Assembly: GCA_016872555.1 (NCBI GenBank)
Contig: VGZO01000024.1
Span: 1-62,789, forward strand
DNA: 62,789 bases
Direction: 5' to 3'
Origin: Planctomycetota bacterium
GTDB lineage: Bacteria; Planctomycetota; Planctomycetia; Pirellulales; UBA1268
Positions 45,233-52,294 of the stretch are shown piece after piece. The notes beneath the pieces were generated by a model. The model was not told the DNA's origin. It saw only the letters and a program-made list of their open reading frames with translations, and did no database searches. The position numbers and the translations under genes are program-made. Each line of letters begins with the position of its first letter. Position 1 is the first letter of the stretch.

Positions 45233-45267
45233 AAAAAAGCCGGACCACCCCTGCGGATGGCCCGGCT
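45233..45267 (-). terminator. intrinsic terminator of the Cys/His/Gly-repeat gene
   Basis: On the minus strand AGCCGG and CCGGCT pair, extended by TGG/CCA with one mismatch, and are followed by TTTTTT (the plus-strand A-run at 45233-45238). It lies 63 bp past the stop of the minus-strand gene. In the plus direction the T-tract is weak (CTTGTTGT), so it could also slow transcription from the AsmA-like gene. Confidence 0.75.
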
Positions 45268-45330: not shown

Positions 45331-45882
45331 TCAGGTCGAGGCCGGAGCGGCGGGGGCCGCCGGGGCAGCGGGGGCCTCGGTCGGAACGCCGTCGGTGATG
45401 ATGCTCGAGCCGCTCTCGATGACGGCGCCCTCGCCGGTCGAGATCACCGACTCACCGCTGCAGCCGCCGCCGGCACAGCCACCGCTGATCACGCCACCCT
45501 CGCTGCTGATCGTCTCGCCGCCGCAGCCGCTGCAGCCGGAGGAGATCGTCTCGCCGCCGCAACCGCTGCTGCAGCCAGTGCTGATCGCCTCGCCGCCGCA
45601 AGCACTGCCGCAGCTGGCCGGAGCGGGAGCAGCCGCACCGTGGCACTTGGCCTTCCGCGAGTGCAGCTTCGACAGCAGACCGCCGCCATGGCAGCCCGAC
45701 GAGGCCGCCGAGCTGGCACCGTGGCACTTCTTGGAGTGCAGCTTGGAGAGCAGGCCGCCACCGTGGCAGCCGCCACGCCCATGGCACCCGTGACCAGCGA
45801 CCGCACCCGAATCGCCACCAACCAGGGCGATCGCGACCAACGCCGCGAACATCGCCACACCGTATCCGACGAACCGCTTCAT
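45331..45882 (-). CDS. exported Cys/His/Gly-repeat protein
   Basis: A 183-residue protein. Residues 1-30 form a signal peptide (MKRFVGYGVAMFAALVAIAL). The mature part has two near-copies of GCHGGGLLSKLHSKKCHG (about 43-85) and then repeated GCGGETIS blocks (about 100-135), ending in an Ala/Pro tail. Cysteines come as isolated CH pairs and CGG units rather than CxxCH, so heme binding is not indicated. Metal binding or disulfide-linked surface structure is possible (inference). ATG 45882 is preferred over an upstream ATG at 45912 because the signal peptide starts there. It has a strong terminator of its own. Confidence 0.82.
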   Translation of the reverse strand: MKRFVGYGVAMFAALVAIALVGGDSGAVAGHGCHGRGGCHGGGLLSKLHSKKCHGASSAASSGCHGGGLLSKLHSRKAKCHGAAAPAPASCGSACGGEAISTGCSSGCGGETISSGCSGCGGETISSEGGVISGGCAGGGCSGESVISTGEGAVIESGSSIITDGVPTEAPAAPAAPAAPAST

Positions 45883-46292
45883 CTGTTGTCTCCAGACAAG
45901 GAACGAAAGCACCCACGGTCATCCGGCTTTTCCCGGACCACGAGGATCCGGGACCGCCGCCGGACCAAAGCCCCGAGCAACCCGTTGCTCGGCAGAGCCG
46001 CAGGCACGATCGCGTGTCTCCGACGGTCGCCACCGCCGGCCATTCGCTGGTGCGAGTGGCCGCCGTTGGGTTTGTCGGTTAGCGAAAAAATCCCGCCTGG
46101 GCAATTTGGGCAAGCTGTAAGGCTAGCAGGCCCCCCGCGCGTGTCAAGAACGCGCATCCCCCTCTAGGGAACGAGAAGAACGAGGCAACTCCCGCAGAAA
46201 ACGGGTGCCGTGAGGGGCGGTTCCCATCCCGTGAGGGCGGTCGGGCGCCCCGGGAGGAGCTCCGCCGTCGCCTCCACGGGCAGGCGGAGCTG
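45883..46292. other. intergenic region upstream of the Cys/His/Gly-repeat gene
   Basis: No gene is supported; a 92-residue open frame here looks like noise. The part near 46070-46130 is less GC-rich and is the likely promoter zone for the minus-strand repeat gene, but no clear hexamers are visible. The hairpin at 46258-46291 belongs to the upstream lipoprotein gene. Confidence 0.45.
46258..46291 (-). terminator. 9-bp stem-loop just after the lipoprotein stop
   Basis: AGCTCCGCC (46258-46266) and GGCGGAGCT (46283-46291) are perfect complements around a 16-base loop. The stem begins 1 bp past the lipoprotein stop. No T-run follows, so it may be a transcript-stabilising hairpin rather than a terminator. 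Confidence 0.4.
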
Positions 46293-46943
46293 TCACTTCA
46301 CCGGCACGGTGCCGGCGGGAGCCCGTGCGGTGCGGTCCCCCTCGCCCTGGGCGGAGGCGGTGGCGCGGCGCTGGAGCTCCTCGGCGACCAGCTCCTGCTT
46401 GGCCACCATGTCGTCGGGGTCCTCGAAATTCAAAAGCAGCGGTGGCATGTCGGGAAACACCTTCATCGCCATCCCGACCACGCGCCAGCCCTCCGGATCG
46501 AGACGGACGACCCAGACCACTTCCTCGCTGCTCTTGAATCCCTCTTCGTCGGTGTCGGTCCAGGTCGTGGCGACGTGCACGAGATCGCCGGCGTCGCCGA
46601 CCATTTCCGACTCGCTCACGGAGTAGGTCGCCGACGGCTTGACGGGGGGGGCGACCATCATCCCGAGCTCTTCGGTGCGGGCCTTGGCGACTTTGCTCAG
46701 TTGGGCAGAGGCCGCGTCGTTGTCGCCGCGCTTGATCGCCTCGAGAAACGTCACGACCGCCTGCTTCGCCGGCTCGGTGGCGGCGCCCGATGCGCCCGTG
46801 GCCGGAGCCGGTCCCGACGCCGAGGAGCATCCGGTGACCGTGAGCGCGGCCACGGCCGCACACCCGGCCACGAAGCTGACCAGCCACAGCGACCATTGGC
46901 CACGGGTGACGGCACGGGACGACGAGTCGGTCGCGGATTGCAT
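46293..46943 (-). CDS. putative lipoprotein
   Basis: A 216-residue protein. The N-terminal segment (about 17-39, WSLWLVSFVAGCAAVAALTV) ends in LTVTGC, a lipobox with Cys39. After a Gly/Ala/Pro linker, residues about 55-175 form a compact mixed domain that resembles small alpha/beta proteins of the DUF4878/NTF2-like kind (AVVTFLEAIKRGDNDAASAQ, then VHVATTWTDTDEEGF and WVVRLDPEGWRVVGM). This family match is tentative. The tail is charged. ATG 46943 has GGAGG seven bases upstream. The 95-bp repeat copy 2 begins 45 bp upstream of the start. Confidence 0.82.
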   Translation of the reverse strand: MQSATDSSSRAVTRGQWSLWLVSFVAGCAAVAALTVTGCSSASGPAPATGASGAATEPAKQAVVTFLEAIKRGDNDAASAQLSKVAKARTEELGMMVAPPVKPSATYSVSESEMVGDAGDLVHVATTWTDTDEEGFKSSEEVVWVVRLDPEGWRVVGMAMKVFPDMPPLLLNFEDPDDMVAKQELVAEELQRRATASAQGEGDRTARAPAGTVPVK

Positions 46944-47269
46944 GCGCGAGCCTCCGGAAAAGCCGAATGGAATTGGCGAGCTGGCTGTCCGTGGACAAAG
47001 CCCTCTGAGGCCAGTGTCCACTCAGGCGACCGCGGGAAACACCGAGGGTTTGCCGGGTCGCCGTCGGCCGCATCCGGCGGCCGATCACTTTTTCCACGGG
47101 TTGCTGAGGGGCGATCGGGGCGGGAAGAGTGACCGCTGACCGGCAACGGGTCAAGGTCAATCGGGCGACTCTCCCGCCCTGCGGCCGGCGGTTGGTAAGG
47201 TGGGAAAGACGGCAGGACGGGCGTGGGGCGTCTGGGCCGGTGCACGTGGCGAGGCCCGCGGAGGCGACG
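46944..47269. other. divergent intergenic region holding repeat copy 2
   Basis: This is the spacer between the minus-strand lipoprotein and the plus-strand cytochrome-like gene. It contains the 95-bp repeat at 46989-47083. GGAGG near 47260 is the ribosome binding site of the plus-strand gene. No clear promoter hexamers were found. Confidence 0.5.
46989..47083. repeat. 95-bp three-hairpin interspersed repeat, copy 2
   Basis: Partner of 14887-14981, same length and orientation. The first stem is shortened to 7 bp (GTGGACA/TGTCCAC, 46991-46997 with 47015-47021). The second keeps GGCGACC/GGTCGCC. The third keeps both CGGCCG arms. It lies 45-140 bp upstream of the minus-strand lipoprotein start and is not read in that gene's frame. 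Confidence 0.8.
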
Positions 47270-48265
47270 ATGACGACGGGACGGCGGGGCGGTGGAGCGG
47301 CGGCGACGATCGTCGTGCTGACGGCGCTGGTTGCCGCGGGCCGGTGCGCTGTCGAGCACGGCGCCCTGGCGGCGCCCCCGCCCGCTGAGCGACTCCGGGC
47401 GCGGCCCCCGGAACGCTGGCCGCCCCTGGTGCAGTCGACGTTCTTCGACGACGCGTTCGCGACGCTCGAGGGACAGCGCCCCGACTTCGCGGCGCTCGGA
47501 GGCCGGCCCGCGTCCACGGCGGTGCAACCGGAAGGGGGGAATCCGCCGGCCGGGGACGGCTTCCGCTGGTCGGCGCTGGTGTCGGCGGAAACCCTCGCCG
47601 ACGAGGTGAAGGACCAGAAGGGGATCGTCGAGGAGGCAATCGGGTCGGCGACGACCTTCAAGGGGGGAGGCTACGAGCGGGCGCGGGTGGCGTTTTCGTC
47701 GATCGCGCTGGTGTACGGCGTGATCGCCGCCTACGACGGCGACATCCGCTGGAAGAAGGAGGCGGCCGCAGCCCGTGATCTGTTCGGCCGCGTCGGCTTC
47801 AATTGCAAGGTCGGGACAGACCAGTCGTTCGCCGAGGCGAAGGCGCGGGGCGCCGACCTCGGCACGCTGCTCGAGGGAAACGGCCTGGCGTCGCGCCCCG
47901 ACCGCGATCCCGACGCCGGCGACCCGCCGTGGAGCCAGATCGCCGCCCGGCCGGCGCTGATGAACCGCCTCGCGCAGGTCGATGCCGTCGCCGCCGCCGC
48001 CACCGGATCGCGGACGGTGTTCAAGGAGCAGCTCGCGCAGTTGGTCCACGAAGTGGAGATCGCGGCGGTGATCGCCGAGGCCATCCAGCGCCCCGATTAC
48101 GAATACCACGATGACGAAACCTACCGCGGCTATGCCGCCGCGATGCGGGCCGCCGCCGAAGCCGCCCGCGTTGCCGCCGGCCGCGACGATTACGACGGCT
48201 TCAGAACGGCCGTGGGCAGCCTGAAGAAATCGTGCGACACCTGCCACGACGCCTACCGGAGCTGA
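47270..48265 (+). CDS. exported cytochrome c'-like protein with C-terminal CxxCH
   Basis: A 331-residue protein. A signal-like segment (about 10-30, AAATIVVLTALVAAGRCAVE) is followed by a Pro-rich linker and a long helical body (VKDQKGIVEEAIGSATTFKG, YERARVAFSSIALVYGVIAA, VFKEQLAQLVHEVEIAAVIA). The only heme motif, CDTCH (322-326), is ten residues from the C-terminus, as in cytochrome c' four-helix proteins, but two such helical bundles appear to fit in the length. Periplasmic electron transfer or gas binding is inferred. ATG 47270 has GGAGG just upstream. The neighbours give no pathway. Confidence 0.78.
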   Translation: MTTGRRGGGAAATIVVLTALVAAGRCAVEHGALAAPPPAERLRARPPERWPPLVQSTFFDDAFATLEGQRPDFAALGGRPASTAVQPEGGNPPAGDGFRWSALVSAETLADEVKDQKGIVEEAIGSATTFKGGGYERARVAFSSIALVYGVIAAYDGDIRWKKEAAAARDLFGRVGFNCKVGTDQSFAEAKARGADLGTLLEGNGLASRPDRDPDAGDPPWSQIAARPALMNRLAQVDAVAAAATGSRTVFKEQLAQLVHEVEIAAVIAEAIQRPDYEYHDDETYRGYAAAMRAAAEAARVAAGRDDYDGFRTAVGSLKKSCDTCHDAYRS

Positions 48266-48315
48266 CCGGACCGGCGCCGAGACGCGAGCGGGCGCTTGAC
48301 GGGAACGCGTTCGGG

Positions 48316-48343
48316 TTGCGTCAGCGGCTCGCGGGGCTACGCT
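48316..48343 (+). promoter_or_regulatory. candidate promoter for the ClpP-like gene
   Basis: TTGCGT at 48316-48321, a 16-bp spacer and TACGCT at 48338-48343. The match is moderate and the start would be about 120 bp before the ATG. Offered as a weak candidate. Confidence 0.3.
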
Positions 48344-48472
48344 GATCCGCCCGGTCCCCACATCCCTCGGTTCGGGCGGAGGGACGGTGCCGGTTTCCGG
48401 TAGAGTGGGGGGGTCAACGGCCGGTTTCGATCGCGCTCCGTCGGCAGTTGCACGGAGCGCATCATTCAATCA

Positions 48473-49108
48473 ATGGAATCCAGCATGGCAGCGCGCAAGG
48501 CGGCACCGCGGCCCGAGTCCGACTCCGAGTCCGAGTCCGAGTCCGAGTCCGACGAGGGGCCGGCCGGCCCGATCGAAATCGCGATCCTCGGCGACCTCGG
48601 CAACCACGAGGGGGAGATCACCGGCAGCCTGATGGGAATCGAGCCCGGCGGCGAATGCATCGTCTACTTCGATTCGCCCGGGGGCAGTCCGTACTGCGCG
48701 ATGTCGCTGGTGTCGCTGATCAAGCTGCGGGGCATCGAGGCCACCGGGATCGTGACCGGCGAGTGTTCGTCGGCGGCACTGTGGCCGTTCGCGGCCTGCA
48801 GCCGCCGCGTGGTCACGCCCTACAGCGTGTTCCTGTTCCACCCGATGAAGTGGCAGAGCGAGGAACACATCGGGATCACCGAGGCGGCGGAATGGTCGCG
48901 GCATTTCGGCCAGCTCGAGAAGGAGATGGACGTCCTTCTCTGCGAGCTGTTTGGCACCGCGGTCGACCTGATCACCGAGTGGATCTGCACCCACCGCTAC
49001 GTGACCGGCCGTGAGATGGTGAAGGCGGGCCTGGCCGAGATGGTCCCCCTCGCGCCCCTGCCCGGACTGGTGCCGGAACGCCAGCCCAGCCCGCACAAGG
49101 GGCGCTGA
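48473..49108 (+). CDS. divergent ClpP-fold (crotonase-like) protease homologue
   Basis: A 211-residue protein. Residues 15-28 are an acidic Ser/Glu repeat. The ClpP fold starts near 33 (IEIAILGDLGNHEGEITGSL). YFDSPGGSPYCAMSL corresponds to the oxyanion region, GECSSAALWPFAAC places the nucleophile at Ser100, and VFLFHPM gives His123. By hand alignment the catalytic Asp of E. coli ClpP (171 of the mature protein) falls at His174 here (THRYVTGREM), so the triad may be altered or a nearby Asp used. No ClpX gene is adjacent. ATG 48473 or 48485 are both possible starts; the ribosome binding site is weak. Confidence 0.8.
   Translation: MESSMAARKAAPRPESDSESESESESDEGPAGPIEIAILGDLGNHEGEITGSLMGIEPGGECIVYFDSPGGSPYCAMSLVSLIKLRGIEATGIVTGECSSAALWPFAACSRRVVTPYSVFLFHPMKWQSEEHIGITEAAEWSRHFGQLEKEMDVLLCELFGTAVDLITEWICTHRYVTGREMVKAGLAEMVPLAPLPGLVPERQPSPHKGR
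48515..48550 (+). repeat. GAGTCC hexanucleotide repeat
   Basis: Six 6-bp units (the second is GACTCC) encode alternating Glu/Asp and Ser at the N-terminus of the ClpP-like protein. Such arrays can change length by slippage without a frameshift. Confidence 0.85.
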
Positions 49109-49229
49109 GCGGCCCCGGCGACGGGGTGACAGCGGCCTGCGGGGCCCCCGGCTGCCGATCGCGGCTATCATGGGGGGCGTGCGGGGGCCGCTTCGCGGCC
49201 CAGCGCTGCACCCCGTCGAGGAATTCGTC

Positions 49230-49802
49230 ATGCGCCCCAGTCGTCTGCCGAGTGTCGCCGCCGTCGTCGCCCTGGCCGTGGTCCCGGTCGCGGCACTGGC
49301 CCAGGATGGCCAGCGTGCCTTCCGCATCGGCGACGGTGCCTTTTCGCTCGAGGCCCCGGCCGGTTGGACACGGGTCCAGCCCAAGTCGACGATCGTCGAG
49401 ACCGAGTTCGCGATCCCGTCGGAGGGAGACGCCCCTGCCGGGCGGATGACGGTAATGGGCGCCGGCGGCAGCGTGCAGGCCAACATCGACCGTTGGTACG
49501 GGCAGTTCACGCAGCCCGACGGCAGCGCCACCAAGGACAAGGCGGTCACCAAGACGGTGAAGATCGCCCAGTGCACGGTGACGATGGTCGACGTCGCCGG
49601 CACCTACAAGGACGCCCCGGCCGGGCCGTTCGCCGGCGGCAAGGCGGTCGACCGTGCCGGCTACCGGATGCTCGCGGCGATCGTCGAGACCCCGGCCGCC
49701 GGCATCTACTTCCTCAAGTTCTATGGCCCTGCGGCCACCGTCTCGAAGCACGCCGACGGCTTCCGGGCGATGGTCGAGGGGCTCGTCCCGGCGGCCCGGT
49801 GA
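49230..49802 (+). CDS. small exported hypothetical protein
   Basis: A 190-residue protein with a clear signal peptide (RLPSVAAVVALAVVPVAALA, cleaved near residue 25). The mature part is a mixed alpha/beta domain (AFRIGDGAFSLEAPAGWTRV, TKTVKIAQCTVTMVDVAGTY, GYRMLAAIVETPAAGIYFLK) that resembles other secreted proteins built on the 'APAGW' opening, of unknown function. One cysteine. ATG 49230 is set by GAGGA upstream and by the signal peptide. It is 9 bp upstream of the ATPase gene and may be co-transcribed with it. Confidence 0.82.
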   Translation: MRPSRLPSVAAVVALAVVPVAALAQDGQRAFRIGDGAFSLEAPAGWTRVQPKSTIVETEFAIPSEGDAPAGRMTVMGAGGSVQANIDRWYGQFTQPDGSATKDKAVTKTVKIAQCTVTMVDVAGTYKDAPAGPFAGGKAVDRAGYRMLAAIVETPAAGIYFLKFYGPAATVSKHADGFRAMVEGLVPAAR

Positions 49803-49811
49803 CCAGCCACG

Positions 49812-51293
49812 ATGCGCATCCAGGAATTCCTCGAACACCACGGTATCGGCGGCAATCCGTTCGCCGAGGAAGACGCCCAGAACGACACCGTCTTCAAGCG
49901 GACCTGCCTCGAGTCGACGTTCCACCCGGCGTGGGACAAGGTCTACGGTGATCCCGACGACCCGAGCACGGCGATCGTGTTCGGGGAGAAGGGCTCCGGG
50001 AAGACGGCGCTCAAGCTGCAGATGGTGCGGCAGTTCGAGCGCCACGCCGCCGACCATCCCGACCGGAAGACGTTCGTCGTCGTGTACGACGACTTCAATC
50101 CGTTCCTCGACCGGTTCATCGGCCGCGTCGGGCCGCGGCGACCGGTCGAGAAGGTGCTCGCCCACTGGAAGCTGTGGGACCACATCGACGCCATCCTCAC
50201 GCTGGCGACGACGCAACTGGTGTCGCAGCTGCTCGATGGCGGCCGCGGCAAGCCGCGCCTCGGGCCGGCCCGGGCCCGCGATCTGGCGCTCCTCGCCGCC
50301 TGCTACGACCAGTCGACCGGAGAGACGTTTCCCTCGCGCTGGGCGCGGTTGCGGCGGCTGGTGGGGTACCGGACGTGGCGGGCGACCTGGCCCTGGTGGC
50401 TGGGCATCATCGTGCTGACGGTGTTTCTCGGAGCGCTGGCCGTGTCGCTCACCAGGGGAGCCGGCTGGGGTGGGATCGTCCCGTCGGGAGCACCGTGGTG
50501 GGTGCCGGTGGCCGTGGTGCTCATCGCCTGGGGGCCGTGGGTCTGGCAGCGGGCACGGGCCTGGTGGACCGCCCGCACGGTGGTCGGCAGCATGCGGACC
50601 GGGAACCGCACCGTCGGCCAGCTGACGCAAGCCCTGGCGCGGATGCCGACGGTGGACCTGGCGGGGCAGCCGCTGCCGCGGCATGCCCGCAGCGACGACC
50701 GCTATGAACTGCTGGCGAAGTTCCAGGGGATCCTCACGAGCCTCGGCTACGGCGGGATGGTGGTGATCGTCGACCGGGTCGACGAGCCGCACGCCATCAA
50801 CGGCCAGGCCGACCGGATGCGGCAACTGGTCTGGCCGTTGCTCGACAACAAGTTCCTCAAGTCGCCGGGGCTGGGCTTCAAGCTCCTCCTCCCCGACGAG
50901 CTGTATCGGTTCATCGAGCGCGAGGACGAGCAGTTCAACCAGCGTGCCAGGCTCGACAAGCAAAACCTCGTGCCCAACCTGGAGTGGACCGGCGAGACGC
51001 TCTACGACATCGCCTCGCAGCGGGTGAAGGCGGCGAGCACGGGCTCGCCCCCGGCGACGCTCGCCCAGCTGTTCGACCCGGCCGTCGACCAGCGCCGCCT
51101 GATCGACGGCCTGCGGACGCTGCGCGTGCCGCGGCACTTGTTCAAGTTCCTCCACCGGCTGTGCGTCGCCCACTGCCACTCGCACACCTCCGAGCAGCCG
51201 GTGTGGACGATCCCGCTGGAGCGCTTCGAGAAGGAACTGGCGGTGTTCCGGCGCGACCAGGAAGCGTTCGACCGGGGGCTCGCCCCGCGCTGA
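49812..51293 (+). CDS. P-loop ATPase with two internal membrane helices
   Basis: A 493-residue protein of a kind I recall as common in planctomycetes. It opens with FLEHHGIGGNPFAEEDAQ, then the Walker A GEKGSGKT at 58-65. Two hydrophobic helices (about 195-213 and 229-246) interrupt the ATPase before a Walker B-like GGMVVIVDRVDE (Asp320, Glu324). Two helices inside a P-loop domain are also seen in KAP-type NTPases, a tentative match. The remaining part is charged and unrecognised. It probably sits on the inner face of the membrane. The stop and the next start share one base (TGATG), so it is tightly coupled to the ApbE-type gene. Confidence 0.82.
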   Translation: MRIQEFLEHHGIGGNPFAEEDAQNDTVFKRTCLESTFHPAWDKVYGDPDDPSTAIVFGEKGSGKTALKLQMVRQFERHAADHPDRKTFVVVYDDFNPFLDRFIGRVGPRRPVEKVLAHWKLWDHIDAILTLATTQLVSQLLDGGRGKPRLGPARARDLALLAACYDQSTGETFPSRWARLRRLVGYRTWRATWPWWLGIIVLTVFLGALAVSLTRGAGWGGIVPSGAPWWVPVAVVLIAWGPWVWQRARAWWTARTVVGSMRTGNRTVGQLTQALARMPTVDLAGQPLPRHARSDDRYELLAKFQGILTSLGYGGMVVIVDRVDEPHAINGQADRMRQLVWPLLDNKFLKSPGLGFKLLLPDELYRFIEREDEQFNQRARLDKQNLVPNLEWTGETLYDIASQRVKAASTGSPPATLAQLFDPAVDQRRLIDGLRTLRVPRHLFKFLHRLCVAHCHSHTSEQPVWTIPLERFEKELAVFRRDQEAFDRGLAPR

Positions 51294-52294
51294 TGGACGC
51301 CGACCTGCACACGCTGGCCGTCGGCCGCGATGCGATGGCCTGCCGGTTCGAAGCGGTGTTCAACGCCGGTGAGCCGGACGATGCGACGCAGCGCGGGATC
51401 GATGCCCTGGAGGTCGTCGAGGCACTCGAAGCGCGGCTCACGATCCACCGCCCGGGAGGAGAGTTGTCGCGGCTCAATGCCGCCGCCGCCGGAGGCTGGC
51501 AGCCGGTCGCCGACGATCTGTTCGCGTTGTTGGAGCGCGCCGACGAATTGTGGCGGCTGACCGACGGTGCGTTCGACATGGCGACCGGGGCGCTGTCGCG
51601 CTGTTGGGGCTTTCTCCGCCGCAGCGGCCGCACGCCCGCGGCCGAGGAACTCGCCGCCGCGCTGGCGGTATCGGGGTGGGGGCGGGTCGAACTCGACCGC
51701 GCTGGCCGTCGGATCCGCTTCACCACCCCCGGGGTGGAGCTCAATCCGGGCGCGATCGGCAAGGGGTATGCCCTCGACCGTGCCGCCGTGGCCCTCGCCG
51801 GCGTGCCGAGCTTCCTCCTCCACGGCGGATCGAGCAGTGTCGTGGCGCGGGGCGTGCAGGGCCCGGCCCTTCCCGGGCGGCGCGGCTGGCGGGTCGGCGT
51901 GCGCCATCCGCTCCGCCCGCAGACGCGCCTCGCGACACTCACGCTCGTCGACCGGGCGCTGGGCACGAGCGGTTCGGGAACGCAGTTCTTCATCGACCGC
52001 GGCCGCCGCCTCGGCCACATCCTCGATCCGCGGTCCGGGTCGCCGGCCGAGGGGGTGCTGTCGGCGACCGTCCTCGCGCCGAGTGCGGCCGACGCCGACG
52101 CCCTGGCGACGGCGGCCTACGTGCTCGGCCCAGCGGGACTCGACCGGATCGCGCCGCCCGGCGGCGCCGTCGCGGCGTTGGTCGCGGTGCCGGCGCGCAC
52201 GGCCGGTGGCGTGCGGGTCGTGACCGCGAATCTGCCTGACAAAGCAGTCGAATGGAGCACCGAGCCGGGGTTGGAGATCATCCGTGCCTCCTGA
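51293..52294 (+). CDS. apbE: ApbE-family FAD:protein FMN transferase
   Basis: A 333-residue protein. ApbE enzymes attach FMN to a Thr of target proteins such as Nqr or Rnf subunits. ELNPGAIGKGYALDRA is the flavin/metal region, FLLHGGSSSVVARG the next glycine block, LGTSGSGTQFF a strand with the metal-binding Ser/Thr, and LGHILDPRSGSPAEG carries the family's HIxDP motif. No signal peptide or lipobox is visible, unlike many ApbE proteins, so it may act in the cytoplasm. The ATG lies on the last base of the ATPase stop. No flavinylation target is adjacent. Confidence 0.9.
   Translation: MDADLHTLAVGRDAMACRFEAVFNAGEPDDATQRGIDALEVVEALEARLTIHRPGGELSRLNAAAAGGWQPVADDLFALLERADELWRLTDGAFDMATGALSRCWGFLRRSGRTPAAEELAAALAVSGWGRVELDRAGRRIRFTTPGVELNPGAIGKGYALDRAAVALAGVPSFLLHGGSSSVVARGVQGPALPGRRGWRVGVRHPLRPQTRLATLTLVDRALGTSGSGTQFFIDRGRRLGHILDPRSGSPAEGVLSATVLAPSAADADALATAAYVLGPAGLDRIAPPGGAVAALVAVPARTAGGVRVVTANLPDKAVEWSTEPGLEIIRAS

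Follow-up and report, generated by a model that had tools for sequence, protein, structure and literature searches.

What kind of protein is encoded by the open reading frame (ORF) at positions 45331 to 45882 (minus strand) of the window, the 62,789-nucleotide stretch of planctomycete DNA analyzed here, and how is its gene controlled? The 183-amino-acid product is an exported Cys/His/Gly repeat protein that starts with the ATG at 45882, a start codon backed by the MKRF sequence conserved in relatives. Residues 1 to 30 form the signal segment, followed by the repeats and an Ala-Pro tail. The original prediction, made from the letters of the window, had described two near-copies of a repeat block, and GCHGGGLLSKLHS was indeed found at residues 38 to 50 and 63 to 75, identical over 13 residues, after which the copies diverge (SKKCHG versus SRKAKCHG). 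The several GCGGETIS blocks that it had listed correspond to CGGE[AT]IS, present three times (residues 95 to 101, 108 to 114, and 120 to 126), and CHG occurs five times. Of the 153 residues past AVAG, 13 are Cys (8.5%) and 8 are His (5.2%), versus 0.6 to 1.3% Cys and 0.5 to 2.8% His in six neighboring ORFs, which confirms the claimed excess over background, and CxxCH is absent, as had been stated.

Neither Pfam nor NCBIfam holds a family matching the window protein, a Pfam search with 17 family members returned zero families for all 17, and a profile search of the PDB gave no relative, its single match (E = 0.38) being at chance level. The predicted structure is disordered except for a helix at residues 3 to 22 (mean pLDDT of 53). 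Paralogs were ruled out, since the genome carries a single strong copy of the gene, the three other matches having E values of 0.07 to 6.9. The titles and abstracts covered contained no description of this protein or of its leader RNA.

The Cys-rich protein family

The original prediction had named the lack of relatives with conserved Cys and His positions as the outcome that would indicate drift in a low-complexity sequence. A profile search instead found a relative in 134 of 296 genomes sampled from the order, spread over 65 of 121 genera, and a search of 59 related genomes found relatives in 33, own genome included. These counts are lower bounds, as one diverged member (in genome G023) was missed by the protein search and found by the RNA search. 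As a rule, there is one ortholog per genome. When 297 genomes from across the class were sampled, 49 had a match, 48 of which belong to the order of the window; the one match from outside the order is partial and lacks the start of the export segment. With a family present throughout the order and positions conserved within it, we reject low-complexity drift as an explanation.

Export is supported by a conserved segment that begins with MKRFLG.. or MNR.. and ends in AVAGHGC, with a mean pairwise identity of 0.74 over 30 residues among 26 members of the window's own family and of 0.62 over 29 residues among 40 members of other families. The expectation of conserved Cys and His positions held in part: all of the 23 members aligned share the first Cys past AVAG and the A-x-A-G junction, but His is not what is conserved. 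The Cys/Gly repeats vary in number, as does the His content, among family members, and most own-family members have GGCxGGxC near the C terminus. Cys makes up at least 11.4% of each of the 40 other-family members, in which His ranges from 1.5 to 14.6%. The reading of the protein as a His-based metal binder is weakened, because Cys is always high and His is not conserved. Purely intramolecular disulfides are not supported either, as the number of Cys is even in only about half of the members (13 of 26 in the own family, for which trimming began some residues early with no effect on the Cys counts, and 22 of 40 in other families); the odd numbers in the remainder would fit intermolecular cross-links or metal binding. 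Separately, an FRxVxFRR-like motif, possibly a sorting signal, was observed at the C terminus of 23 of the 40 other-family members (L088 to L127).

Promoter, terminator, and transcription unit

On the minus strand, upstream of the gene, a -35 element (TTGACA, 46142 to 46147) and, 16 nucleotides from it, a -10 element (TAGCCT, 46120 to 46125) were found. The pattern TTGACW-N15-18-TANNNT is present in 66 of 66 upstream regions (26 from the own family and 40 from other families), with a spacer of 16 nucleotides in 65 and of 17 in the remaining one, and in about 1% of shuffled sequences. From the end of the -10 element, 168 to 266 nucleotides lead to the ATG across the 66 regions. With the transcription start placed from the promoter, the 5' leader of the window would span 45883 to 46119 (minus strand) and include a Shine-Dalgarno-like GGAGA (45889 to 45893, minus strand); a GGAGG, GGAGA, or AGGAG site is present in 66 of 66 leaders. 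Downstream of the stop codon lies an intrinsic terminator (45238 to 45267, minus strand), a 16-bp hairpin (-29.8 kcal/mol; z = -4.8) followed by U6, which a pattern scan had overlooked. The same arrangement, a hairpin and a T-run past the stop, was found in 25 of 25 relatives' loci examined.

With its own promoter in 66 of 66 regions and a terminator in 25 of 25 loci, the gene is therefore most likely monocistronic across the order. This agrees with the original prediction, which had claimed a strong terminator of its own, expression alone, and a long upstream spacer; that spacer, about 410 nucleotides from the ATG to the next same-strand ORF (from 46293), contains the leader of about 200 nucleotides, an RNA that the prediction had overlooked. 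A leader peptide was rejected as not conserved, a start codon with a Shine-Dalgarno-like site occurring inside the leader in 16 of 26 own-family and 8 of 40 other-family cases. Upstream boxes noticed by eye are not claimed, as their counts were low in the stretch tested (CTTACA in 4 of 26 and 6 of 40; TTACA..AGGG in 0 of 26 and 5 of 40). GGTAC was observed within 60 nucleotides of the ATG in 27 of the 40 other-family leaders (L088 to L127) and in 0 of the 26 own-family ones.

A pseudoknot in the leader

Own-family leaders share the sequence GGTCCGG-TR-GCCGTC-CCGGATC ... GACGGC, the arms of which cross and thus form an H-type pseudoknot, with GGTCCGG/CCGGATC as helix P1 and GCCGTC/GACGGC as helix P2. 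Across 27 own-family loci, 97% of the P1 cells and 95% of the P2 cells pair. Covariation within this family is modest, the pairs changed on both sides being matched by 150 of 500 shuffles. Outside the own family, P1 has a very different sequence but still pairs, each of its positions showing several standard pair types, and its register shifts between families. Among 24 nonredundant leaders, drawn from 31 canonical other-family leaders, the P1 pairing score averaged 17.7, versus 10.8 with swapped flanks, and 0 of 2,000 permutations reached the observed sum. With L006 left out of the leaders, a P1 score of at least 14 was obtained for 26 of 31 leaders in one set and 24 of 24 in the other. For background, 65 P2-like sites from other places in two genomes had a mean P1 score of 7.1, and 2 of them reached 14. 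P2, on the other hand, reads GCCGTC/GACGGC in 44 of 56 canonical leaders and varies too little for its pairing to be proven by covariation; compensated variants are ACCGTC/GACGGT and GCCGCC/GGCGGC, and L006 has GCGGTC/GACCGT. Loop lengths of 2, 0, and about 12 nucleotides prevail and suit the simultaneous formation of both helices.

In a P2-anchored search, a fully paired candidate was found in 61 of 66 leaders, five of which (L001, L103, L116, L119, and L122) were excluded because they do not have the canonical site or form, and five leaders (L089, L098, L100, L110, and L124) had no paired candidate. This leaves a canonical pseudoknot in 56 of 66 leaders and 10 leaders lacking one; in L119, visual inspection suggests a P2 that is longer and compensated. 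The pseudoknot lies about 41 to 68 nucleotides before the ATG in 55 of the 56 canonical leaders and 32 nucleotides before it in one, and it does not touch the Shine-Dalgarno site.

The leader of the window itself departs from this form. Both P1 arms are kept (GGTCCGG, 45960 to 45966, and CCGGATC, 45945 to 45951, both on the minus strand), and P2 is displaced or lost: its 5' arm reads GCGGTC (45952 to 45957, minus strand) instead of the GCCGTC of most relatives, and the place of the canonical 3' arm (45925 to 45930, minus strand) reads AAAGCC, which does not pair with it. A possible displaced 3' arm, GACCGT (45915 to 45920, minus strand), sits some ten bases past the canonical site and could pair with GCGGTC with one G-U pair. 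A sister genome (L006) has the same P2 arrangement, and two other species of the genus (L005 and L007) have a canonical pseudoknot. In the best unknotted fold of the window leader, the P1 3' arm pairs with the downstream GGTCCGGG. The knot score of the window was 36, versus a shuffle maximum of 37, and several other leaders likewise do not exceed their shuffles (15 per sequence). Since P2 is displaced or lost here, we regard the pseudoknot, as judged by sequence comparison, as established for the family and not for the window.

A leader element probably dedicated to one gene

A model of the own-family element gave one strong match (E < 1e-10) in each of 29 of 59 genomes, every time at the Cys-rich gene; as most other families lie beyond the reach of the model, this single-gene linkage applies to the family of the window. 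A putative second RNA copy at G030:C126 (E = 6e-6) was rejected, being located inside a long open reading frame. For the other families, a genome-wide count of P2 as a bare pattern showed no enrichment in either of two genomes (40 versus 45 for the control and 111 versus 95, per strand). Searches of Rfam 15 with the window leader, 8 loci, and 20 loci returned only matches far below the gathering scores.

From the protein family, its promoter and terminator, the RNA structure of the family, and the one-gene linkage in the window's family, all of them read from sequence, we infer a regulatory leader RNA, a reader of that RNA, and a role for the protein. The explanation that we favor, with moderate confidence, is that of a control element, dedicated to a single gene, on an exported, disordered, Cys/Gly-rich envelope protein that is kept across the order. 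The strong promoter of the gene would produce a leader of about 200 nucleotides, with the pseudoknot, in most relatives, shortly before the start codon, where it would act in cis on translation or mRNA stability. Recognition could take place at the nearly invariant P2 (GCCGUC/GACGGC), with P1, which covaries freely, serving as scaffold. Composition and export suggest a thiol-rich envelope component, the exported chain probably being cross-linked through its cysteines into a surface matrix.

Alternatively, the leader might be a static 5' stabilizer or a ribosome stand-by structure that keeps an abundant mRNA stable. The strong, constitutive-looking promoter, the conserved terminator and knot, and the apparent lack of a regulon would all agree with this, but a static structure should not need a P2 of nearly invariant sequence while P1 changes freely, and we consider this possible but unlikely. 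More doubtful still is a riboswitch, with the pseudoknot as an aptamer for a metal ion or a thiol/redox metabolite, that would adjust the level of an exported protein that buffers metals or thiols. A compact, conserved leader structure does precede a Cys-rich gene, and a ligand might be bound in a pocket formed by P2, which hardly varies. Riboswitch classes, however, usually precede several genes, and with the own-family model no placement before several genes of one theme was seen in 59 genomes, the element being confined, in the window's family, to this gene. Moreover, inspection of the leader by eye revealed neither an intrinsic terminator nor an anti-Shine-Dalgarno switch, and what stays constant is a plain helix, with variable loops.

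Gene neighborhood and a putative GGCX-fold membrane protein

Among the flank loci, gene order around the Cys-rich gene is largely kept on both sides, so that adjacency alone says little. Upstream, most loci have a small gene of lipoprotein-like type and one for an AAA-type ATPase. The lipoprotein-like gene of the window (46293 to 46949, minus strand) matches no Pfam family, and almost every flank locus keeps it next to the Cys-rich gene. Farther on, positions 47270 to 52294 of the window hold a conserved neighborhood with a cytochrome c', a ClpP-like protein, and an AAA-type ATPase, as well as an ORF that we take to be ApbE-like.

Downstream, 19 of 24 other-family flank loci have a companion gene, next to which a membrane protein is encoded (e.g., L136:7926-8936 and L138:4401-5435, in addition to 17 further loci). 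Of 18 membrane-protein members, 8 weakly matched the SdpB family TIGR04033 (best E = 2.5e-7), the single score seen being 17 against a curated cutoff of 178 bits, and 1 matched HTTM. In a Foldseek search, one structural model of this protein (pLDDT of 88.8) matched the vitamin K gamma-carboxylase (GGCX) fold (E = 1.6e-5; probability of 1.00; TM score of 0.63). In the own family, the membrane protein is absent from this place in 8 of 8 loci, 7 of which, the window included, have a convergent AsmA-like gene there instead. Homologs of the membrane protein do occur elsewhere in the window's own genome, and on its contig C10 a companion-like ORF (L162:804-1484) adjoins a GGCX/HTTM-like ORF, away from the Cys-rich gene.

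These neighbors bear on another suggestion of the original prediction, a modified peptide precursor, here one that would be processed or modified by the nearby GGCX-fold (SdpB/HTTM-like) protein and its companion. Besides the neighbor itself, with its SdpB and HTTM matches and its fold, the combination of a conserved export segment and a variable remainder, resembling a leader-core layout, would favor such a precursor. However, no maturation genes were found in the same operon: judging from gaps of 65 to 386 nucleotides and from the terminators, the membrane protein probably forms a separate transcription unit. Additionally, the companion product matches no SdpA family, and the conserved gene order makes the adjacency weak evidence. 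The proposed look for modification enzymes in other genomes thus yielded a candidate in most other-family loci, but one that is probably transcribed separately and is missing next to the gene in the own family, and we think it improbable that the protein is such a precursor.

Finally, both helices of the leader are inverted repeats in the DNA as well, but a DNA operator for a transcription factor is highly improbable, since the entire P1 sequence differs between families with pairing kept, which a protein-read operator would hardly tolerate, and since the promoter is a good distance upstream of the site, the loop lengths of which fit pseudoknot geometry.

To return to the dedicated leader element, it might be extended into a new class of order-wide, gene-dedicated RNA, in which the knot senses metal, thiol, or envelope state, directly or through an RNA-binding protein, and thereby determines how much is made of a rapidly evolving, disordered surface protein rich in Cys that is partnered, in most families, with a nearby GGCX-fold membrane enzyme; we offer this as a speculation that is rather unlikely to hold in full. 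The envelope of these bacteria is said to be protein rich, and a pseudoknot that many families of the order have kept in front of one and the same gene, for an orphan exported protein, may offer a handle on the control of a surface component. Likewise, the GGCX-fold neighbor may provide a lead on the function of bacterial HTTM-like proteins.

Comparison with known systems

With SdpABC and other GGCX/HTTM systems, the locus shares an exported, Cys-containing protein and, in most other families, a putative GGCX-fold neighbor; it differs from them in that the genes do not form one operon, are not adjacent in the own family, and include no SdpA match, and in that the exported protein has no known target site. 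Pfam holds a model for the YTV domain. The Cys-rich cell wall proteins with this domain (PMC8567305) are planctomycete envelope proteins rich in Cys. The proteins described here share this richness in Cys but are small, disordered, and built of repeats and match no Pfam family.

As for the RNA, the element resembles riboswitch candidates and orphan leader RNAs in being a conserved, structured leader found by comparison alone; it differs from those in being linked, in the window's family, to a single gene and in having no Rfam match and no known ligand. Rhodopirellula-1, listed as a probable cis-regulatory RNA of Planctomycetes and Proteobacteria (Weinberg 2010, PMC2864571), is similar in being a probable cis-regulatory RNA in Planctomycetes and differs in being listed for Proteobacteria as well; its alignment is absent from Rfam.

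In position and shape, with no sequence relation or membership claimed, the element resembles the translational operators of phage T4 gene 32 and Escherichia coli rpsO (S15), in which a single gene likewise has an H-type knot in its leader (PMC3014915). Those knots are bound by the protein that the gene encodes (PMC3014915), whereas the Cys-rich protein is exported and is not known to bind RNA. An H-type leader pseudoknot shortly before the start codon is present in the family, with the window itself departing from the canonical form, and where the gene 32 pseudoknot is described as lying 67 nucleotides before its start codon, the distance here is 41 to 68 nucleotides in 55 of 56 leaders (PMC3014915).
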